The notes beneath the pieces are model-generated. The model was not told where the DNA came from. It saw only the letters and a program-made list of their open reading frames with translations, and ran no database searches. This document shows, in pieces, positions 3,107 through 39,332 of a stretch of DNA of 39,706 bases. Numbering within the stretch: the stretch's first letter is position 1; each line of letters opens with the position of its first letter. This stretch comes from a virus: IMG/VR virus record IMGVR_UViG_3300046488_000043, positions 1-39,706 of that record; one strand, 5' to 3'. A program made the position numbers and the translations under genes.

Positions 3107-4924
3107 TTATGTATATGTATTTATATTTATATCGATTGTTACTGATGGCTCCTGTGTTATATCTGCCTCAATTGCCAATATTTGTGGTTCAACAATAGTA
3201 ACTGATTGAACTTGTGGTTCAACAATAGTAACTGATTGAATTGGATCGCTGATCGAAGTGATTTGTTGTGTAACTTTAACTGCTTGTAATGTTCCATCAC
3301 CTTTATGACCATATGCACTTATGAAGTATTGAATACATTTATGAATCCACCCGCCCTCAAACACATGGGAAAATCCTAACAATAATTCTGTTATAGATAT
3401 TTCCTTAGTTGTGAGTTTATTAACATTACTAATTAACCCGGTAATTACATTAATAGTTCTTGTTCCTGCTTTTGTAATATATACCATTATGTTCGATACA
3501 CCCACATGAATCTTATTTGTTGTTTTAGTGACATTACCTACAACATTGCTTGTAATTGATTTAGATATTGATACAACCTTCTTAACAGATGTGGTAGTTG
3601 CAATAGTTGCAGTAAGTGTTAGGAATTTTATAGCATTAGCTACAAGTGACGCAATTATACCAACTAAAGTATTAAATAATTTAGAGATAGTCTTCTTAAT
3701 ATTACCTGTTACAGTCAGAATATTCAACCACACTTTACTTGTTTGTTTAACTATAATTCCATTGATACCCACAGTGACACTCTTGACTTTAGTATTTGCC
3801 TTAACTATATTGCTTATGATTACTCCGATAACAGATTTAATTAAATTAACTAATTTTGTAACTGATGAAGTAATAGTTTCTGTAACAGATTTAATTAATT
3901 GAACTTGCTTAAATGAAGTTGCTGTCACATTAATATTAACACTCTCCACCTTAATGCTTGTCTTAGTGATGCTATTTGTAATTGTCTCTGCCACAGATTT
4001 AACTAAATTAGTTGTCTTGATAATATTACTGCTTAATATTTCGGTGATGGATTTAACTATCAACATTTGTTTAACAATAACACTATTAATACCCACAGTG
4101 ATACTTTTAACTTTAATATTTGCCTTAGTGATGCTATTTGTAACAGTTTCTGTTATAGTTTTAACTAACTGAGTTTGTTTAATAGTATTTGCGGTAACTC
4201 CCACAGATGCAGTTAATATCAATAGGTATGTTCGTATTGCATTAATAGTTGCTGTTAAAGATGAAGTTACACTAAACACTTTATTAATTTGCTTAATAAC
4301 GATTCCACCGATGCTTAAACTAATATTTTTAATCAATTGTGGTGCTTTTGTGATGCTACCTGTAATAGTTTCACTAACTGATTTAACTAACTTAGATGTT
4401 TTTGTGATGCTACCTGTAATAGTTTCACTAACTGATTTAACTAACTTAGATGTTTTTGTGATGCTACCTGTAACAGTTTCACTAATTGATTTAACTAAAT
4501 TAGATGTTTTAGTAATATTACCCGAAGTTATAGATGATACATTAACTGATTTAATATCATTCTTGTTAAATATCGCACTTATAGAAGATGATACTGATGT
4601 AATTTTCTGCGTAAGTTTAACCAAAGGTGATGTAATAACAACTGTCGTAGATAATAATTTATTAATTGCTCGTTGGATGGTAGATGAGGCAGTAGTTGTA
4701 ACTGCCGGCAGTGCTTTATTATCCCACTTATTAATATTACCTGTAGTTGGTGTAATAGATGTTTTAATTGTTATTGTATTTTTAGCCATTACAGGATTAA
4801 GTGTAATAGATGGTGTCATTGGTTTATTATCGGTTTTAATCACTAAAGGCGATGAAGACACTGACGCAGTTAATGTCATTGTAAATGCATTACCGTTTGC
4901 CTTAAATAGTAATAATAAACTCAT
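3107..4924 (-). CDS. Repeat-rich fibrous virion protein
   Basis: The product has 605 residues, built largely from degenerate 18-residue repeats of the type SKLVKSVSETITGSITKT, with alternating hydrophobic and Thr/Ser positions that suggest a beta-solenoid or fibrous fold. Three consecutive repeats are nearly identical in DNA (54-bp units, 4346-4507). A 10-residue repeat (SVTIVEPQVQ) lies near the C-terminus. There is no cysteine-rich or catalytic motif. The ATG overlaps the stop of the upstream structural gene (ATGA). It is probably a tail-fibre or decoration component at the end of the structural cluster. Open frames on the opposite strand are mirror images of the repeats. Confidence 0.75.
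   Translation of the reverse strand: MSLLLLFKANGNAFTMTLTASVSSSPLVIKTDNKPMTPSITLNPVMAKNTITIKTSITPTTGNINKWDNKALPAVTTTASSTIQRAINKLLSTTVVITSPLVKLTQKITSVSSSISAIFNKNDIKSVNVSSITSGNITKTSNLVKSISETVTGSITKTSKLVKSVSETITGSITKTSKLVKSVSETITGSITKAPQLIKNISLSIGGIVIKQINKVFSVTSSLTATINAIRTYLLILTASVGVTANTIKQTQLVKTITETVTNSITKANIKVKSITVGINSVIVKQMLIVKSITEILSSNIIKTTNLVKSVAETITNSITKTSIKVESVNINVTATSFKQVQLIKSVTETITSSVTKLVNLIKSVIGVIISNIVKANTKVKSVTVGINGIIVKQTSKVWLNILTVTGNIKKTISKLFNTLVGIIASLVANAIKFLTLTATIATTTSVKKVVSISKSITSNVVGNVTKTTNKIHVGVSNIMVYITKAGTRTINVITGLISNVNKLTTKEISITELLLGFSHVFEGGWIHKCIQYFISAYGHKGDGTLQAVKVTQQITSISDPIQSVTIVEPQVQSVTIVEPQILAIEADITQEPSVTIDININTYT
3118..3131 (-). promoter_or_regulatory. Double T4-late-like promoter box
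   Basis: Two overlapping TATAAATA boxes (3131-3124 and 3125-3118) near the 3-prime end of the repeat-protein gene, upstream of the membrane-protein pair. Confidence 0.55.
3181..3240. repeat. 30-bp tandem repeat, two units
   Basis: Units 3181-3210 and 3211-3240 differ at one base. They encode the 10-residue repeat VTIVEPQVQS of the fibrous protein. Confidence 0.95.
4346..4507. repeat. 54-bp tandem repeats, three units
   Basis: Three in-frame 54-bp units (starts 4346, 4400, 4454); the first two are identical and the third differs at a few positions. Each encodes 18 residues. Unit number could change by recombination without a frameshift. Confidence 0.95.
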
Positions 4925-28837: not shown

Positions 28838-30478
28838 TTAAGCATTAGGAATGCCATTGGTTGATGTTCCTGTCTGTGGTTCTGGTGCCTTGGGTGGTGC
28901 AACTGCTGATGGTAATCCTACATTAGTCTTAGCATTAATCTCCATTACTTCTGCAATCTTAGCATCTGCTTCTTGTTCTGTTAAACCTTTTTCTTCCATA
29001 AAGTAATCTTTAATAGAAGCACGATTATTATCAATACGCAATGTCCAAATATTCTCTTGTTCCATTAGATTGACTGGTAGATTAGGTGGTGCAAATTCTG
29101 CTTGTAAATATCCATCAGTAAGTTGTCCTGGATAGATAACCTTTGTAATCTCATAGAAACGACGCAAACTCGATTGCATCATCTGTGCACGCATATCACG
29201 CAATTGAAGATTGTTTAATTCTTCCACAACTAATTGGAATCCACTGTTTGCTTTACCGCCACCACCATAGTTTAAGTTGACAGACCAATCATTAGCAACT
29301 GCTTGCACATAATTAGTGATGATAGTATCTAATGCTGCTAAATCTGTGTCTGGACCAACAAACTCTGCTTTACCAGCAGTTCCACCACCATCTAATCCTA
29401 ATTTAGCAATACTACCTAATCCACCCAACATAGATTGTTTGCGTGTTTGATAGAACGGAATATCATTATAGATTGCACCACCTGGGCTATTACCTAATTG
29501 TGCTGCTGGAATAAGTTGATCACCTGCATTATTATCATCATTAATAAGATCACCAGTAATAAACAAAGTCTTTTGCTTTTGGAATGCAATAGCAAACTCT
29601 GTATCAGTTAATGCTAAATTTACAACTTCTTGTAATGCAATAAGATCTTCAGAAGGGCGAACCCAAAAGTCTTTGCGTGGCTTACGAGTATCATAGAAGA
29701 ATGATGCTGGAACTATTCCATAAGGATTAGGTTCACGACTAATAACAGTTTCAATATTTTGTTGATTACTACTATAACGCGAATCATTTTGTTCATTTAC
29801 TTGAATTTCAATAATTTCTTCTGGTGTCCATACACAATAAGACCAATTCTTTGGGCGATTGCTATAACCTTTATCTAAATCATAGGAAATATCGTCTAAA
29901 ATATAAGCAAGTTCTGTAATCTTTGTTCGTGCTTCATTCATCTTTACAACAGTATTACCATAATGTAAGATTGTGAATAATAGTTGATCACCACGAGTAT
30001 AATCAAAGCGATATTGACCATTCTGTGTAGTGGTTCCATCAGGAACAGATAATTGTTGTAAGACGATAGTTGAGCCACATAAGCGTGTATATACATCAAT
30101 ATTTTGCATTACTTCATTCCAGTCTGCATTCTCTAACATTTCTTGATAAACTGGGTCTACCACAGGTTCATTATTGACACCTGTAATAATATTAAGCTGT
30201 GGTGGCTTATTAAATAGTAAACCACTTTTATCTACAATAGATTTAATAACATTTCTTACACGCGGCACAATACCGCGGTGCTTCCATTCTTTGCGTTTAC
30301 CAAACCCATTCATTGCACCATCTAACATAGAGATAACATAATCACGCTGATCACCTTCGTAGTAATCAACCAACTTTTGCATATCTATTGCTTCATCATC
30401 AAAAAAATCATCATAATCGATGGTTTTGCCTGGAATAAGATTATCGTTGTCATCGTCTTGCATATTAGGTGTTGTCAT
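28838..30478 (-). CDS. Portal protein
   Basis: The product has 546 residues. The segments VDYYEGDQRDYVIS, RVRNVIKSIVDKSGLLFNKPP, LCGSTIVLQQLS, VVNLALTDTEFAIAFQKQK and the helical end with QEADAKIAEVMEIN are those of phage portal proteins of the SPP1/HK97-type fold. Twelve copies form the DNA entry channel at one capsid vertex. It follows the large terminase, as usual, and has its own CATAAATA box. Confidence 0.85.
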   Translation of the reverse strand: MTTPNMQDDDNDNLIPGKTIDYDDFFDDEAIDMQKLVDYYEGDQRDYVISMLDGAMNGFGKRKEWKHRGIVPRVRNVIKSIVDKSGLLFNKPPQLNIITGVNNEPVVDPVYQEMLENADWNEVMQNIDVYTRLCGSTIVLQQLSVPDGTTTQNGQYRFDYTRGDQLLFTILHYGNTVVKMNEARTKITELAYILDDISYDLDKGYSNRPKNWSYCVWTPEEIIEIQVNEQNDSRYSSNQQNIETVISREPNPYGIVPASFFYDTRKPRKDFWVRPSEDLIALQEVVNLALTDTEFAIAFQKQKTLFITGDLINDDNNAGDQLIPAAQLGNSPGGAIYNDIPFYQTRKQSMLGGLGSIAKLGLDGGGTAGKAEFVGPDTDLAALDTIITNYVQAVANDWSVNLNYGGGGKANSGFQLVVEELNNLQLRDMRAQMMQSSLRRFYEITKVIYPGQLTDGYLQAEFAPPNLPVNLMEQENIWTLRIDNNRASIKDYFMEEKGLTEQEADAKIAEVMEINAKTNVGLPSAVAPPKAPEPQTGTSTNGIPNA

Positions 30479-32229: not shown

Positions 32230-32266
32230 CCACTAACTCCATAGTGGCTGCTTTATGTTATTTATA
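32230..32266 (-). promoter_or_regulatory. T4-late-like promoter plus hairpin for terminase genes
   Basis: Perfect TATAAATA (32266-32259), then CCACTA with TAGTGG (32230-32235 with 32242-32247) on the minus strand. A GGAGTTAACAA ribosome-binding region precedes the start at 32204. Confidence 0.6.
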
Positions 32267-32598: not shown

Positions 32599-33072
32599 TT
32601 AAACTGCTGTATAGTCGAATAGTTGGGAAAATAAGGTTGGTTCCTGATCGAGTGATGCATTTAACATTCTGCGTCTGTCCTGTTCTTTACGCATTTCTCT
32701 ATCACCCATATAGTCCTCAATATCTAATCCATCATCCATGTAGATATTAAATACTTCACTGAATGTTGTTTCACTATTATTTAATAGTTTAACTAACATT
32801 TTATTTATTTTAAGGATCTGGTCTTCAGATAAATCAGCGTGTTTGCCACCATCCTTAAATGTATATGCCCATTTAATAATCTGATATAGTGATTCCATAT
32901 CATTTTTATTCCAGTCTGGTATGCTGGATTGATCGGTGTATATTTTCATTAGGGCTAAATGCACATCTTTAATTGTGCTGCGTTCTGTATCGCTGAATAC
33001 ACAGTAAACAATCCCTTTGCGGATTGTTCCTGTGTGGATACTTGTAAATTCGCGTGTTTTGTATAGTTTCAT
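32599..33072 (-). CDS. Hypothetical 157-aa protein
   Basis: The product has 157 residues, charged, with helical stretches (LSEDQILKINKMLVKLLNN) and an acidic centre (YMDDGLDIEDYMGDREM) followed by a basic patch (RKEQDRRRM). Family not recognised. Its promoter module is the best example of the TATAAATA plus GTAGCA-N3-TGCTAC arrangement, followed by an AAGGGAAA ribosome-binding site. Confidence 0.7.
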   Translation of the reverse strand: MKLYKTREFTSIHTGTIRKGIVYCVFSDTERSTIKDVHLALMKIYTDQSSIPDWNKNDMESLYQIIKWAYTFKDGGKHADLSEDQILKINKMLVKLLNNSETTFSEVFNIYMDDGLDIEDYMGDREMRKEQDRRRMLNASLDQEPTLFSQLFDYTAV

Positions 33073-33093
33073 TGTATTTCCCTTAAGTATAAA

Positions 33094-33119
33094 GTAGCAT
33101 TCTGCTACATGTATTTATA
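33094..33119 (-). promoter_or_regulatory. T4-late-like promoter plus 5-prime hairpin
   Basis: TATAAATA (33119-33112) followed three bases later by GTAGCA-N3-TGCTAC (33108-33094) on the minus strand. Confidence 0.65.
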
Positions 33120-33225
33120 CAAATAAGGGAAAAACTGGGTGATATGGTGTAAAAAGTTAACAAATTTATTACTGTAATAGTAAGTGATATTTGTCTATAC
33201 ATCACAATTAAGGATTACAATTTAC

Positions 33226-33483
33226 TTATAGCACCTCAGTTTTCACAATGTATGTCTTGAATAATAATATATTCTTTGTGTCGGATACTTTAATCAATAA
33301 TGTGTATGTGTCAAATGCAATAATCTGTCCAGCGACTTTTTGTCCATCATATAAATCAAAAACTAAGGTTGCCTTATCATAAACTGCCTGCTTAAAAAAT
33401 TTGGATTGAACATTATTCATATGTGTGGGATTCGTTGTCCCTTTCTTCTGTTCTGTTAATGTAATGTTATTGATAGTGTTCAT
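33226..33483 (-). CDS. Sm-like protein resembling Hfq
   Basis: The product has 85 residues. Residues 26-58 align without a gap to residues 8-40 of E. coli Hfq. Gln26 matches Gln8, Phe29 matches Phe11, Gly47 Gly29, Gly52 Gly34, and Phe57-Asp58 Phe39-Asp40 in the Sm1 motif DGQKVAGQIIAFD. A shorter Sm2-like strand LLFKTYIV (73-80) replaces VYKHAIS, keeping the lysine but not the histidine. The rim arginines of Hfq (RRER) are replaced by VYDK. It is probably a ring-forming RNA-binding protein; the target RNAs are unknown. A promoter plus hairpin module precedes it. I place it by pattern, not by a search. Confidence 0.65.
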   Translation of the reverse strand: MNTINNITLTEQKKGTTNPTHMNNVQSKFFKQAVYDKATLVFDLYDGQKVAGQIIAFDTYTLLIKVSDTKNILLFKTYIVKTEVL

Positions 33484-33499
33484 AATCTTATCCTTTAAG

Positions 33500-33524
33500 T
33501 AGCATATTGCTAATGTTATTTATC
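33500..33524 (-). promoter_or_regulatory. Promoter plus 5-prime hairpin of the Hfq-like gene
   Basis: GATAAATA (33524-33517), then TAGCA-N3-TGCTA (33512-33500) and an AAAGGATAA ribosome-binding site, all on the minus strand. Confidence 0.6.
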
Positions 33525-35244: not shown

Positions 35245-35272
35245 GTAGCATCTTGCTACAACTATATTTATA
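35245..35272 (-). promoter_or_regulatory. T4-late-like promoter plus 5-prime hairpin of lysis cluster
   Basis: TATAAATA (35272-35265), then GTAGCA-N3-TGCTAC (35259-35245) on the minus strand. It would drive the holin candidate, spanins and small genes. Confidence 0.65.
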
Positions 35273-35957: not shown

Positions 35958-36020
35958 TTTAATTGTAATTTGGACTTGTTATATACATGGGTACTGTTAC
36001 TACTGCACCATAATATTATA
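35958..36020. repeat. Dispersed repeat, copy 2
   Basis: 36 bases identical to 18816-18851, plus 19 bases matching 18861-18879 with one mismatch. It spans the stop of the polymerase-like gene and ends at the start of the 63-aa gene. A further 14-base piece (GTTATATACATGGG) recurs at 36108-36121. Confidence 0.9.
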
Positions 36021-37406
36021 ATCATTTGCCTGTTTATTCTTAAAATGCTGTTGCATCCATGTAAGTTGTGTAATAAGTGTCTGAGACTCTTGCCCTACTT
36101 TACCGAAGTTATATACATGGGGTAAGTGAGTGTGTGGGGGTGTATTATGTTGGTGACTTAACTTAACTTCTTTAGGCGTAGCCGAAGTAAGTGTATCAGT
36201 CAATGAGGATGAGTTTACGAATCCGAAGTGCGATACACTTACTGGTGATGCGTTAGCATCGCCGACTATCTCACACACATGCTCTGCATCTATCTCTATC
36301 TTGAATCCTGTCTTATTCATAATATGTGCTTTAAGTGCTACTTCATCAACCATCATCTCTGTTGACCAACCGTCATGTTCTAAGAAACACTTGTTATTTG
36401 TCTTACTGAAATAATCATTTGCTGCATTAAGCACTTGTCTCTCTAAGTCGAAGTAACGAGCCCACTTCTGTTTACTGCTAATAGGTAACATCTTATTGTT
36501 GCCATTCTTATCAGTGATGGATCGGCGCGACATTGTTGGTTTAATAGCAGTCCAGCATTCCTTTATATCACTTCTAAGTGTAGTAAGCCATTCATCTTGC
36601 TTTAACCACTCAATGCGATTACTGTCGTGATTCATTAGCTTGCTTAAAGCAAATTCGGGAGAGTTACCTAAGCGTGCACCACAAAATAATGCATTGATAA
36701 GGATCTTGCTTGTTTTAGATGAATAGCCCTTTGCTTCATATAACTCTGCTTCATTAGTGATTCTATCTCTGTGTGATGTTCTATCTGCGAGATATGACTG
36801 CAAACCAAACAAGTATTCATCCATACCTTGATGTTGTGCATGTTGTAATATAAGTGTTGGTGCACAGCAACGAATATCATAATGATATTTCAATCCGTGA
36901 TTATTAAGAATCTCTGTTTTATATTCGCGCTTAATGTTCTGTAGCGGATGCCATAGTCTATTAGACTTATCAGTATACACAAATACTTTACAGTTTAGTT
37001 CATTGGCATGTTCTGCTTCTACCATTTTACTAACAACAAAGTGATCAAAATATCGTGTTGGTTCTTTAATCTGTTTTTGTTTAAGTTCTATTTGTTCATC
37101 TGGTGTAAATGCCTTATCTAAGTTGCCCTTAAGCACTGATTCGATATATGCTGCACCTGTAACATTTAATATGTATTTTTTAGATATGCCTGCGACTGCA
37201 CTATAATGGTGATCTGTACAAATAAGAAGTATCGATTTAAGCCACTTGCTTAAATCACCTTGTGATTGGCCGAATCTTTTATCGATTGCCTGTTGTGAGC
37301 GTTGTTGTGGTTCGGTTGGGCTGAATACGCCCTTAGTATAACCATACGCAAGTCTTACTGTTTTAAGAACCCTTACATTATTAAAGTTGGGTTGATATTT
37401 TATCAT
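36000..37406 (-). CDS. Putative single-subunit polymerase-like protein
   Basis: The product has 468 residues and is not a family I can name. Three blocks resemble the palm/fingers motifs of the PolA/T7 RNA polymerase superfamily. Block A-like: YHYDIRCCAPTLILQHA (Asp177). Block B-like: R213 to G243, with K234 and N238 in KTSKILINALFCGARLG. Block C-like: FLEHDGW with His344-Asp345-Gly346, the form seen in single-subunit RNA polymerases. Spacing (177 to 345) is short but possible. No exonuclease, primase or helicase motif is visible. The C-terminal 80 residues are low-complexity and His/Thr-rich. It has its own promoter box and hairpin. A replication or transcription enzyme is inferred from the motifs only. 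Confidence 0.45.
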   Translation of the reverse strand: MIKYQPNFNNVRVLKTVRLAYGYTKGVFSPTEPQQRSQQAIDKRFGQSQGDLSKWLKSILLICTDHHYSAVAGISKKYILNVTGAAYIESVLKGNLDKAFTPDEQIELKQKQIKEPTRYFDHFVVSKMVEAEHANELNCKVFVYTDKSNRLWHPLQNIKREYKTEILNNHGLKYHYDIRCCAPTLILQHAQHQGMDEYLFGLQSYLADRTSHRDRITNEAELYEAKGYSSKTSKILINALFCGARLGNSPEFALSKLMNHDSNRIEWLKQDEWLTTLRSDIKECWTAIKPTMSRRSITDKNGNNKMLPISSKQKWARYFDLERQVLNAANDYFSKTNNKCFLEHDGWSTEMMVDEVALKAHIMNKTGFKIEIDAEHVCEIVGDANASPVSVSHFGFVNSSSLTDTLTSATPKEVKLSHQHNTPPHTHLPHVYNFGKVGQESQTLITQLTWMQQHFKNKQANDYNIMVQ

Positions 37407-37425: not shown

Positions 37426-37456
37426 TTGTGTTACCTCTAACACAAGTGTATTTATC
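37426..37456 (-). promoter_or_regulatory. Promoter box plus 5-prime hairpin for polymerase-like gene
   Basis: GATAAATA (37456-37449), then a perfect 8-bp stem TTGTGTTA with TAACACAA (37426-37433 with 37438-37445) on the minus strand and an AAAAGGAT ribosome-binding site. Confidence 0.6.
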
Positions 37457-37568: not shown

Positions 37569-39332
37569 TTATTCACCAAACAACTCTTTTGATAACCCAC
37601 TATTATTCCACGACTCAATCCTTGTTGCTGCTATTGCCACATACTTTGGATCTAACTCACAACCGGTAAAGTGGTGTCCTAACTTGACTGCTGCCATACC
37701 TGTTGAACCAGACCCCATAAATGGATCTAAGACTTTACGCTGTAGTTCAGGTGTCGATGGTGGTGTGACTAACTTGATAAGATATTCCATTAGTGCCACT
37801 GGCTTCACGGTTGGGTGGTTGTTGCCGATTTGTGGTTTAGTGGAGTGATCTGCTTGTGTTCCGCGTGTTTGATCATCTTCACTGCATATGCGTTGATCAC
37901 CAATGTCAAACCCACTATGTCTCTCTTTGCGGCTAACCTTTGGACAATAGAAATACTTCTGATAACCTTCCGCAACTTCACCGATGACATTCGATGGATA
38001 GCGACCGGCATTGTGTGGTTCGATAATAGGTGTATCCTCATCTGCTGGAACATAACCTTGATGATCGCAAAACTTTGATATGTTACCTGCTGATTGTTGT
38101 GGCTTAAATGCACCTTGTTCACCCCACGGCACTCTCGTAGCGTCAATGTTCATAGCACCGAGACCGTTCTTTAATACATTATCAATCGTTGAGCCTTTGT
38201 ATGGTTTGCGTGCCATAACGATGGGCTCGTGTGCTGGTTTAGCGGTTGCGGCCAGGGAGAGTGTGTGCTTCTTGTTTGTAGCATTCACGAGAGCAATACA
38301 TTCCGTGTGGGTGTCTTTCAACTTCAACAGTGCGTCTTTCAAACTCTTTAGCACAGACTCGGCAGCCGATTGTTTGCCATCTTGACTTATCAGGGCCGGG
38401 ATGATGCTCTCTTGTATGCTCTTCGATAGCGAGTATCTCAAGGTTGTCAATAGCGTTGTTATGCTTGTTGCCGTCTCTGTGGTGGACATGCTCTCTACTT
38501 GTAAGAGGGCGACCGATGTGCTGCTCCATAACTGAACGATGTTCAAGATCGTTTCTTCTATCTCCAATAATGCGGACATATTCGCCGCTTGTGTCGCGTC
38601 TTGCTGGTGTTGACTGAGCATCACCATTGCACTTTGTTGAGCAGTATTTCTTTCCGAACCTGAGTATTGGGTTACCACATTGTTGACATATGAGCATAGC
38701 GCCTCCATTTGTAATGTTGTCTCATCGACACTATTACTTATCAAAGTGCGCTCAACCCCGCAACTTTTACGAGCCAATACTACGGGCTCCATTGCGGGTT
38801 TCAATGCTGTCTTAAATCCTTCCCATTGTTTTGCGAGCGGCGATGTGCAGACTGGTTGTGTAATGGTTGAATGTCTTTCGAGTCCTAATGTCTCATCGGT
38901 ATCATTTGCATTACTTTCTCTATTCTTAGATTCGTTTTGAATGCCACCATACTGTTTTAATAGGCGTACATCTTCTTGTTCAACACCCAATCGCTTCTGT
39001 ATCGCCTTACCAATATCCTGTGCCTTTGGAAAGCCTGAACTGTAAAGCCACATTAGTTGATCGCGTATTTCAAAGCCTGCCAATTCAATATTAGATGCTA
39101 ATTGATGATATGTTCTTGCTGCACTGAATGCAAGCATATATCCACCTGGCTTCAATACTCTAAGACATTCTTTATATAGTTCTAATGTGCCAGTGTGTTG
39201 ATCCCAATCCTTACCTAAGAATGCTATTCCATATGGTGGATCAGTAATGATTGAGTCGAAAGTGTTATCGGGATAGTTCTTTAGTGTGGCGAGATTATCG
39301 CCGAGGTGTAGGTTATATGGATTTGTCATCAT
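37569..39332 (-). CDS. DNA methyltransferase, beta class, carrying an overprinted HNH gene
   Basis: The product has 587 residues. The catalytic motif DPPYG is at residues 31-35, the AdoMet motif LDPFMGSGSTGMAA at 535-548, preceded by NHPTVKP (505-511): an N6-adenine or N4-cytosine methyltransferase of the beta order. Residues about 178-190 (LKPAMEPVVLARK) and 364-376 (AKPAHEPIVMARK) are a duplicated segment. It brackets about 185 extra residues of low-complexity helical sequence, whose DNA encodes an HNH endonuclease in another frame (38239-38697). Without the insert the protein would be about 400 residues, the usual size. Two possible starts (39332, 39329) are adjacent. Confidence 0.88.
   Translation of the reverse strand: MMTNPYNLHLGDNLATLKNYPDNTFDSIITDPPYGIAFLGKDWDQHTGTLELYKECLRVLKPGGYMLAFSAARTYHQLASNIELAGFEIRDQLMWLYSSGFPKAQDIGKAIQKRLGVEQEDVRLLKQYGGIQNESKNRESNANDTDETLGLERHSTITQPVCTSPLAKQWEGFKTALKPAMEPVVLARKSCGVERTLISNSVDETTLQMEALCSYVNNVVTQYSGSERNTAQQSAMVMLSQHQQDATQAANMSALLEIEETILNIVQLWSSTSVALLQVESMSTTETATSITTLLTTLRYSLSKSIQESIIPALISQDGKQSAAESVLKSLKDALLKLKDTHTECIALVNATNKKHTLSLAATAKPAHEPIVMARKPYKGSTIDNVLKNGLGAMNIDATRVPWGEQGAFKPQQSAGNISKFCDHQGYVPADEDTPIIEPHNAGRYPSNVIGEVAEGYQKYFYCPKVSRKERHSGFDIGDQRICSEDDQTRGTQADHSTKPQIGNNHPTVKPVALMEYLIKLVTPPSTPELQRKVLDPFMGSGSTGMAAVKLGHHFTGCELDPKYVAIAATRIESWNNSGLSKELFGE
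38239..38697 (-). CDS. HNH endonuclease overprinted within methyltransferase gene
   Basis: The product has 152 residues, read in the -1 frame of the methyltransferase gene on the same strand. A zinc finger (Cys4, Cys7, Cys19, Cys23) is followed by the HNH core SREHVHHRDGNKHNNAIDNL (68-87: His72-His73, Asn81/Asn85, then His94) and a second zinc finger (Cys112, Cys115, Cys135, Cys139). A strong GGAGG ribosome-binding site lies four bases before the ATG. It is very likely a homing endonuclease. The methyltransferase frame stays open through the whole gene. Confidence 0.9.
   Translation of the reverse strand: MLICQQCGNPILRFGKKYCSTKCNGDAQSTPARRDTSGEYVRIIGDRRNDLEHRSVMEQHIGRPLTSREHVHHRDGNKHNNAIDNLEILAIEEHTREHHPGPDKSRWQTIGCRVCAKEFERRTVEVERHPHGMYCSRECYKQEAHTLPGRNR
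38706..38827. repeat. 122-bp perfect direct repeat, copy 2
   Basis: Second copy of the sequence at 1-122. It covers the methyltransferase codons just before the embedded HNH gene and reaches the first base of that gene's GGAGG ribosome-binding site. Confidence 0.95.

Follow-up and report, generated by a model that had tools for sequence, protein, structure and literature searches.

Hfq is a ring-shaped bacterial protein that handles regulatory RNA; its earliest known role was that of a host factor borrowed by the RNA phage Q-beta. In the proximal pore of the Hfq ring, residue 42 provides the stacking surface for an RNA base, which is recognised by Q8, K56 and the amine side chain of residue 41; H57 contacts the ribose and is thought to favour RNA over DNA (PMC10628458). 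The aromatic residue at position 42 is a tyrosine in S. aureus Hfq. In cyanobacteria, Hfq has lost key RNA residues and works by way of a pilus protein (PMC10989914). Hfq-like domains have also been described on mobile elements, namely Thermococcus plasmids and the Pyrobaculum spherical virus (PMC3543421), and an Hfq-like fold has been reported or annotated for proteins encoded by the mycobacteriophages Adephagia (gp39), Tonenili and Phabba. A further point of comparison is phage T4, in which late promoters read TATAAATA and the ribosome site of gene e is masked in read-through RNA (PMC3014915).

Here we examine an open reading frame (ORF) at positions 33226..33483 of the minus strand of the virus record IMGVR_UViG_3300046488_000043, for which a preliminary description had proposed a phage-encoded Hfq-like Sm protein. 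The window analysed is the whole 39,706-base sequence of this record.

Results

Gene and genomic context

The minus strand of the window carries a dense operon of siphovirus type, with genes for a terminase, a major head protein, a tape measure protein and a J-like tail fibre. On the side of the Hfq-like ORF facing away from the terminase operon there are spanin-like genes and a lysozyme gene on the plus strand, which places the ORF between the lysis and terminase genes. No tRNA genes were found in the window.

The ORF (33226..33483, minus strand, stop codon included) encodes 85 amino acids from an ATG start, with a Shine-Dalgarno sequence, AAAGGA, 7 nt 5′ of the ATG (33491..33496, minus strand). 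In coding score, its own frame reaches 0.09 bits per codon and the five alternative frames range from –0.35 to –1.62; the codon use of the ORF matches that of neighbouring genes. Together with its position in the dense minus-strand operon and its own leader and promoter element, these sequence features make it look like a real gene. The encoded N-terminus is about 17 residues longer than that of Hfq, and the C-terminal tail of Hfq is absent. An internal start at Met22 would restore the usual Hfq N-terminus; the nearest AAAGGGA lies ~18 nt upstream of that codon, and Met1 is therefore preferred as the start.

Elsewhere in the record, the ends at 1-604 and 37569-39332 are similar (144 nt at 96% and 300 nt at 81% identity), apparently as two copies of a DNA methyltransferase region. 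The minus strand also encodes a 468-aa protein (36000-37406), for which Pfam gave no match, PHROG no meaningful one and tblastn none in phages, and a 605-aa protein (3107-4924) that matches no family and whose gene contains repeated 54-nt units. The protein in the portal position (28838-30478, minus strand) matched nothing in 50,697 phage records; the sole relative found is on contig L008, which also carries the nearest terminase (43% identity) flanked by genes that are likewise related.

Homology to Hfq and predicted fold

The Pfam Hfq family PF17209 matches residues 25-79 (33247..33411, minus strand) with 27.5 bits (E 2.4e-6), a margin of 0.5 bits over the curated cut-off of 27 bits. The Hfq equivalog profile TIGR02383 gives 26.9 bits (E 3.1e-6), far short of its cut-off of 61.7 bits, and the protein is therefore not filed as an Hfq equivalog; the match to the cyanobacterial Hfq profile NF047718 is weak (15.3 bits, cut-off 52). 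Among sequences of solved structures, B. subtilis Hfq is the best match (E 0.0082) and all matches with E < 0.9 are Hfq, while a tblastn search of plasmids has annotated Hfqs among its best matches. Alignment by hhalign to three Hfqs yields an E value of 9.3e-6. The phage protein is 23-28% identical to ordinary Hfqs. A hidden Markov model built from five ordinary Hfqs scores it at 22.5 bits, compared with 15.4 bits for the best of 20,000 shuffles of the protein itself; in the top rows of this control, the sole other unshuffled sequence is one stop-to-stop minus-strand frame from the same locus. PHROG returned weak matches to families of unknown function (phrog_26902, E 9e-4); phrog_26902 is absent from Tonenili and two cyanophages.

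The fold was predicted with AlphaFold for one chain in single-sequence mode, without an alignment. The model contains a helix at residues 24-35 followed by four strands, an arrangement of N-terminal helix and bent Sm beta-sheet like that of the PF17209 family. Block means of pLDDT are 71-84 over residues 31-80, and pLDDT is 73-84 in the core, with a whole-model mean of 61 and low values at the C-terminus. The fifth strand, which in Hfq makes the ring contact, is not seen in this single-sequence model. Among the matches listed by Foldseek, 50 of 50 are Hfq entries, as are 48 of the 50 listed by VIA-align (best Z 5.9, rmsd 3.2 over 54 residues); the remaining two VIA-align rows belong to Spindlin, an unrelated Tudor-like protein, and to an Sm protein from a spliceosome entry.

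The sequence, profile and fold scores are individually modest, yet concordant on Hfq. PF17209, hhalign, the shuffle control, Foldseek and VIA-align all agree with the Hfq/Sm assignment of the preliminary description, and Hfq ranks first in both profile and structure searches. As far as Hfq/Sm homology alone is concerned, we are confident that the product of the ORF belongs, as a divergent member, to the Hfq branch of the Sm fold.

Residues at the RNA-contacting surfaces of Hfq

In a gapless alignment with a constant offset of 18 (Hfq number plus 18 gives the phage number), the six residues singled out earlier as retained are all present: Q8 (Q26), F11 (F29), G29 (G47), G34 (G52), F39 (F57) and D40 (D58). 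The changes noted at the same time also hold in this alignment, since the rim residues R16, R17 and R19 correspond to V34, Y35 and K37, departing from the arginine patch of the Gram-negative type, and the YKHA (Sm2) motif reads F-K-T-Y, with its histidine replaced by Thr77. The proximal U-binding surface, which had been described as kept, is so in part. Three of the four pocket residues are retained (Q8 as Gln26, the aromatic residue 42 as Tyr60, the residue found in S. aureus Hfq, and K56 as Lys76), whereas Thr59 occupies position 41 and Thr77 replaces H57, which contacts the ribose in Hfq. Not mentioned previously were the extra N-terminal residues, the missing C-terminal tail and a changed distal face, in which Y/F25 is Asp43, I/F30 is Gln48 and Q33 is Ala51.

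With three of four pocket residues kept but position 41 and H57 changed, a weakened proximal RNA site is plausible; judged from these residues, the protein probably binds A/U-rich RNA. The role of a classical annealer of small RNAs and mRNAs appears unlikely, because the distal-face and rim residues required for annealing are mostly lost.

Compared with bacterial Hfq, whose nearest solved examples come from B. subtilis (YmaH) and Listeria, the phage protein thus shares the helix and Sm strands, the six conserved residues, the aromatic residue at position 42 and K56, and differs in its low identity, in its residues at H57, position 41, the distal face and the rim, and in being encoded in a phage operon. 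It resembles cyanobacterial Hfq in combining the Hfq fold with a loss of key RNA residues, but unlike that protein it retains Q8, aromatic 42 and K56.

Relatives in phage, virus and genome collections

We found no close relatives by tblastn in the 50,697 phage records or by pattern search in IMG/VR or the genome collection; the latter absence is weak evidence, as pattern searches reach close relatives only. PF17209 had no match in 50 phage or virus records, most of them found through the terminase. Several apparent viral Hfqs were set aside. In one contig (L002, 4007-5222) miaA directly precedes hfq, and in MT835489 (L099, MT835489.1, 65-3252) the order is mutL-miaA-hfq, both indicating bacterial chromosome; two Salmonella records with Hfq are 500-kb bacterial contigs. 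The Hfq of contig L003 and of Acinetobacter 'phage' records looks host-type. The full Hfqs of phage and virus collections that can be placed by their neighbours lie in host chromosome.

Adephagia gp39 does not align with the present protein and has no Pfam Hfq match, and the Tonenili record has no PF17209 match. The Thermococcus and Pyrobaculum Hfq-like proteins, which we set apart by their description only, are archaeal, and most of the plasmid-borne ones are fused to a zinc finger.

ATAAATA elements and 5′ leaders

The promoter and leader assignments that follow are based on sequence pattern and folding prediction only. There are 26 copies of the heptamer ATAAATA on the minus strand, which is the gene strand, and 3 on the plus strand; dinucleotide shuffles give about 15 and 11, respectively. 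Nineteen of the 26 gene-strand copies lie ≤100 nt upstream of gene starts, in regions that together span 12% of the window; no other 7-mer is as common in these regions as ATAAATA (18 of 47 starts). The Hfq-like gene has such an element at 33517..33523 (minus strand); further minus-strand examples are at 33112-33118, 35265-35271, 32259-32265 and 37449-37455. On contig L008, ATAAATA occurs seven times on the gene strand, at positions before gene starts, and never on the other strand. These elements resemble the T4 late promoter TATAAATA and may be promoters of a similar kind. In contrast to T4, the present phage has siphovirus-type tail genes, and no gp55-type late sigma factor was recognised among the window proteins scanned, in a record that may be incomplete. 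Separately, a perfect 14-nt inverted repeat (1274-1287 and 1335-1348) spans two divergent ATAAATA elements between a minus-strand and a plus-strand gene.

The 5′ hairpins mentioned in the preliminary description were found as sequence features, in the form of palindromes in leaders. The palindrome TAGCAnnnTGCTA has four exact copies (1260-1272, 33095-33107, 33500-33512 and 35246-35258), each preceded by ATAAATA and followed by the ribosome site of a gene on the minus strand. One of these genes is the Hfq-like gene (TAGCAATATGCTA, 33500..33512, minus strand) and another is the next gene of the operon (TAGCAGAATGCTA, 33095..33107, minus strand); some other genes have a different hairpin after ATAAATA. 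In the Hfq-like gene the leader RNA would form a weak hairpin of 5 pairs, at –3.2 kcal/mol not better than shuffles. The candidate small RNAs proposed alongside found no support, a search of the window against Rfam returning no RNA family. A search for the leader pattern in IMG/VR returned 11 contigs, mostly one repeated sequence with no obvious gene start after the pattern; L092 and L093 carry ATAAATA, a hairpin and then an ATG, and the pattern is therefore not specific to the present phage.

For the read-through RNA immediately 3′ of the Hfq-like gene, covering 33077-33132, folding prediction gives a long stem (–22.7 kcal/mol, z –5.65). Its 5′ arm (33124..33132, minus strand) would pair with a 3′ arm (33077..33085, minus strand) that contains the ribosome site of the next gene, which encodes a 157-aa protein with no family match (32599..33072, minus strand), so that this site is predicted to be hidden in read-through mRNA. 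The ATAAATA element at 33112..33118 (minus strand) lies inside the stem, and a transcript initiated there would accordingly lack the masking arm. The same arrangement, with ATAAATA within a stem masking the ribosome site in read-through RNA, is described for T4 gene e (PMC3014915). The masking arm carries a U5 tract, which we mention, as speculation, as a possible site for an Hfq-like ring.

Discussion

We favour a reading in which the phage encodes a divergent Hfq-family Sm ring that is made late, binds A/U-rich RNA at its proximal side and affects mRNA stability or translation, and assign this statement as a whole a probability of about 0.45. The protein would be expressed from its own late-type ATAAATA promoter and assemble into an Sm ring, probably of six subunits, whose proximal pore may bind short A/U-rich single-stranded RNA via Gln26, Tyr60 and Lys76. 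By this means it could influence the stability or translation of A/U-rich mRNA of the phage, and possibly of the host, rather than serve in general annealing of small RNAs to mRNAs. Counting against this reading are the small Pfam margin and the widely missed TIGR02383 cut-off, the changes at position 41, H57, the distal face and the rim, a model with a low-confidence C-terminus that does not show the fifth strand, and the absence of close relatives from the collections searched.

The partial loss of RNA-contact residues alongside retention of the core fold residues would also suit a protein directed at the host, one that upsets host small-RNA regulation by entering the host Hfq ring, competing with it or attaching to a host protein, with little RNA binding of its own. 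Cyanobacterial Hfq offers a precedent for action through a protein partner, and in T4 dmd mutants host Hfq has an effect on the silencing of late genes (PMC3014915). With 23-28% identity to ordinary Hfq, mixed rings with the host protein are uncertain, and the joint retention of Q8, aromatic 42 and K56 would be unneeded for such a function, which we consider somewhat doubtful. An Sm-fold protein with a role outside RNA regulation, such as phage DNA binding or a structural adaptor, is unlikely by our estimate: it would account for the loss of H57, with its presumed preference for RNA over DNA, and for a gene located between lysis and terminase genes, but the similarity is to RNA-binding Hfq and not to phage structural families. 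That the ORF has no relation to Hfq at all, the match arising by chance from a small beta-barrel or a non-coding frame, seems to us highly improbable. The slim Pfam margin, the moderate model confidence (mean pLDDT 61) and the single Spindlin row would fit such an origin; against it, Hfq comes first in sequence, profile and fold searches, the score is out of reach of shuffles and the frame is coding-like.

An extension of the favoured reading makes the Hfq-like ring the protein partner of the phage's own leader RNAs. The ring would bind the U tract and the A/U-rich leaders of ATAAATA promoters and thereby control the timing of late-gene translation, beginning with the masked next gene. We think this improbable as it stands; if true, the phage would possess a self-contained system of riboregulation, Hfq included.

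Hfq-like domains are already known from mycobacteriophages, archaeal plasmids and an archaeal virus, and what is new here, as read from its sequence, is a divergent phage-borne Hfq-family protein. Given that the mycobacteriophage proteins lack sequence similarity or a Pfam match where tested and that the other cases are archaeal, we count it as a variant of a known theme. Since the placeable Hfq matches of phage and virus collections sit in host chromosome, a gene within a phage operon is a cleaner case. An Hfq-family protein encoded by a DNA phage would show that a virus can itself supply a protein for RNA handling, and the altered surfaces of this one would serve as a natural experiment on what each part of Hfq is needed for.
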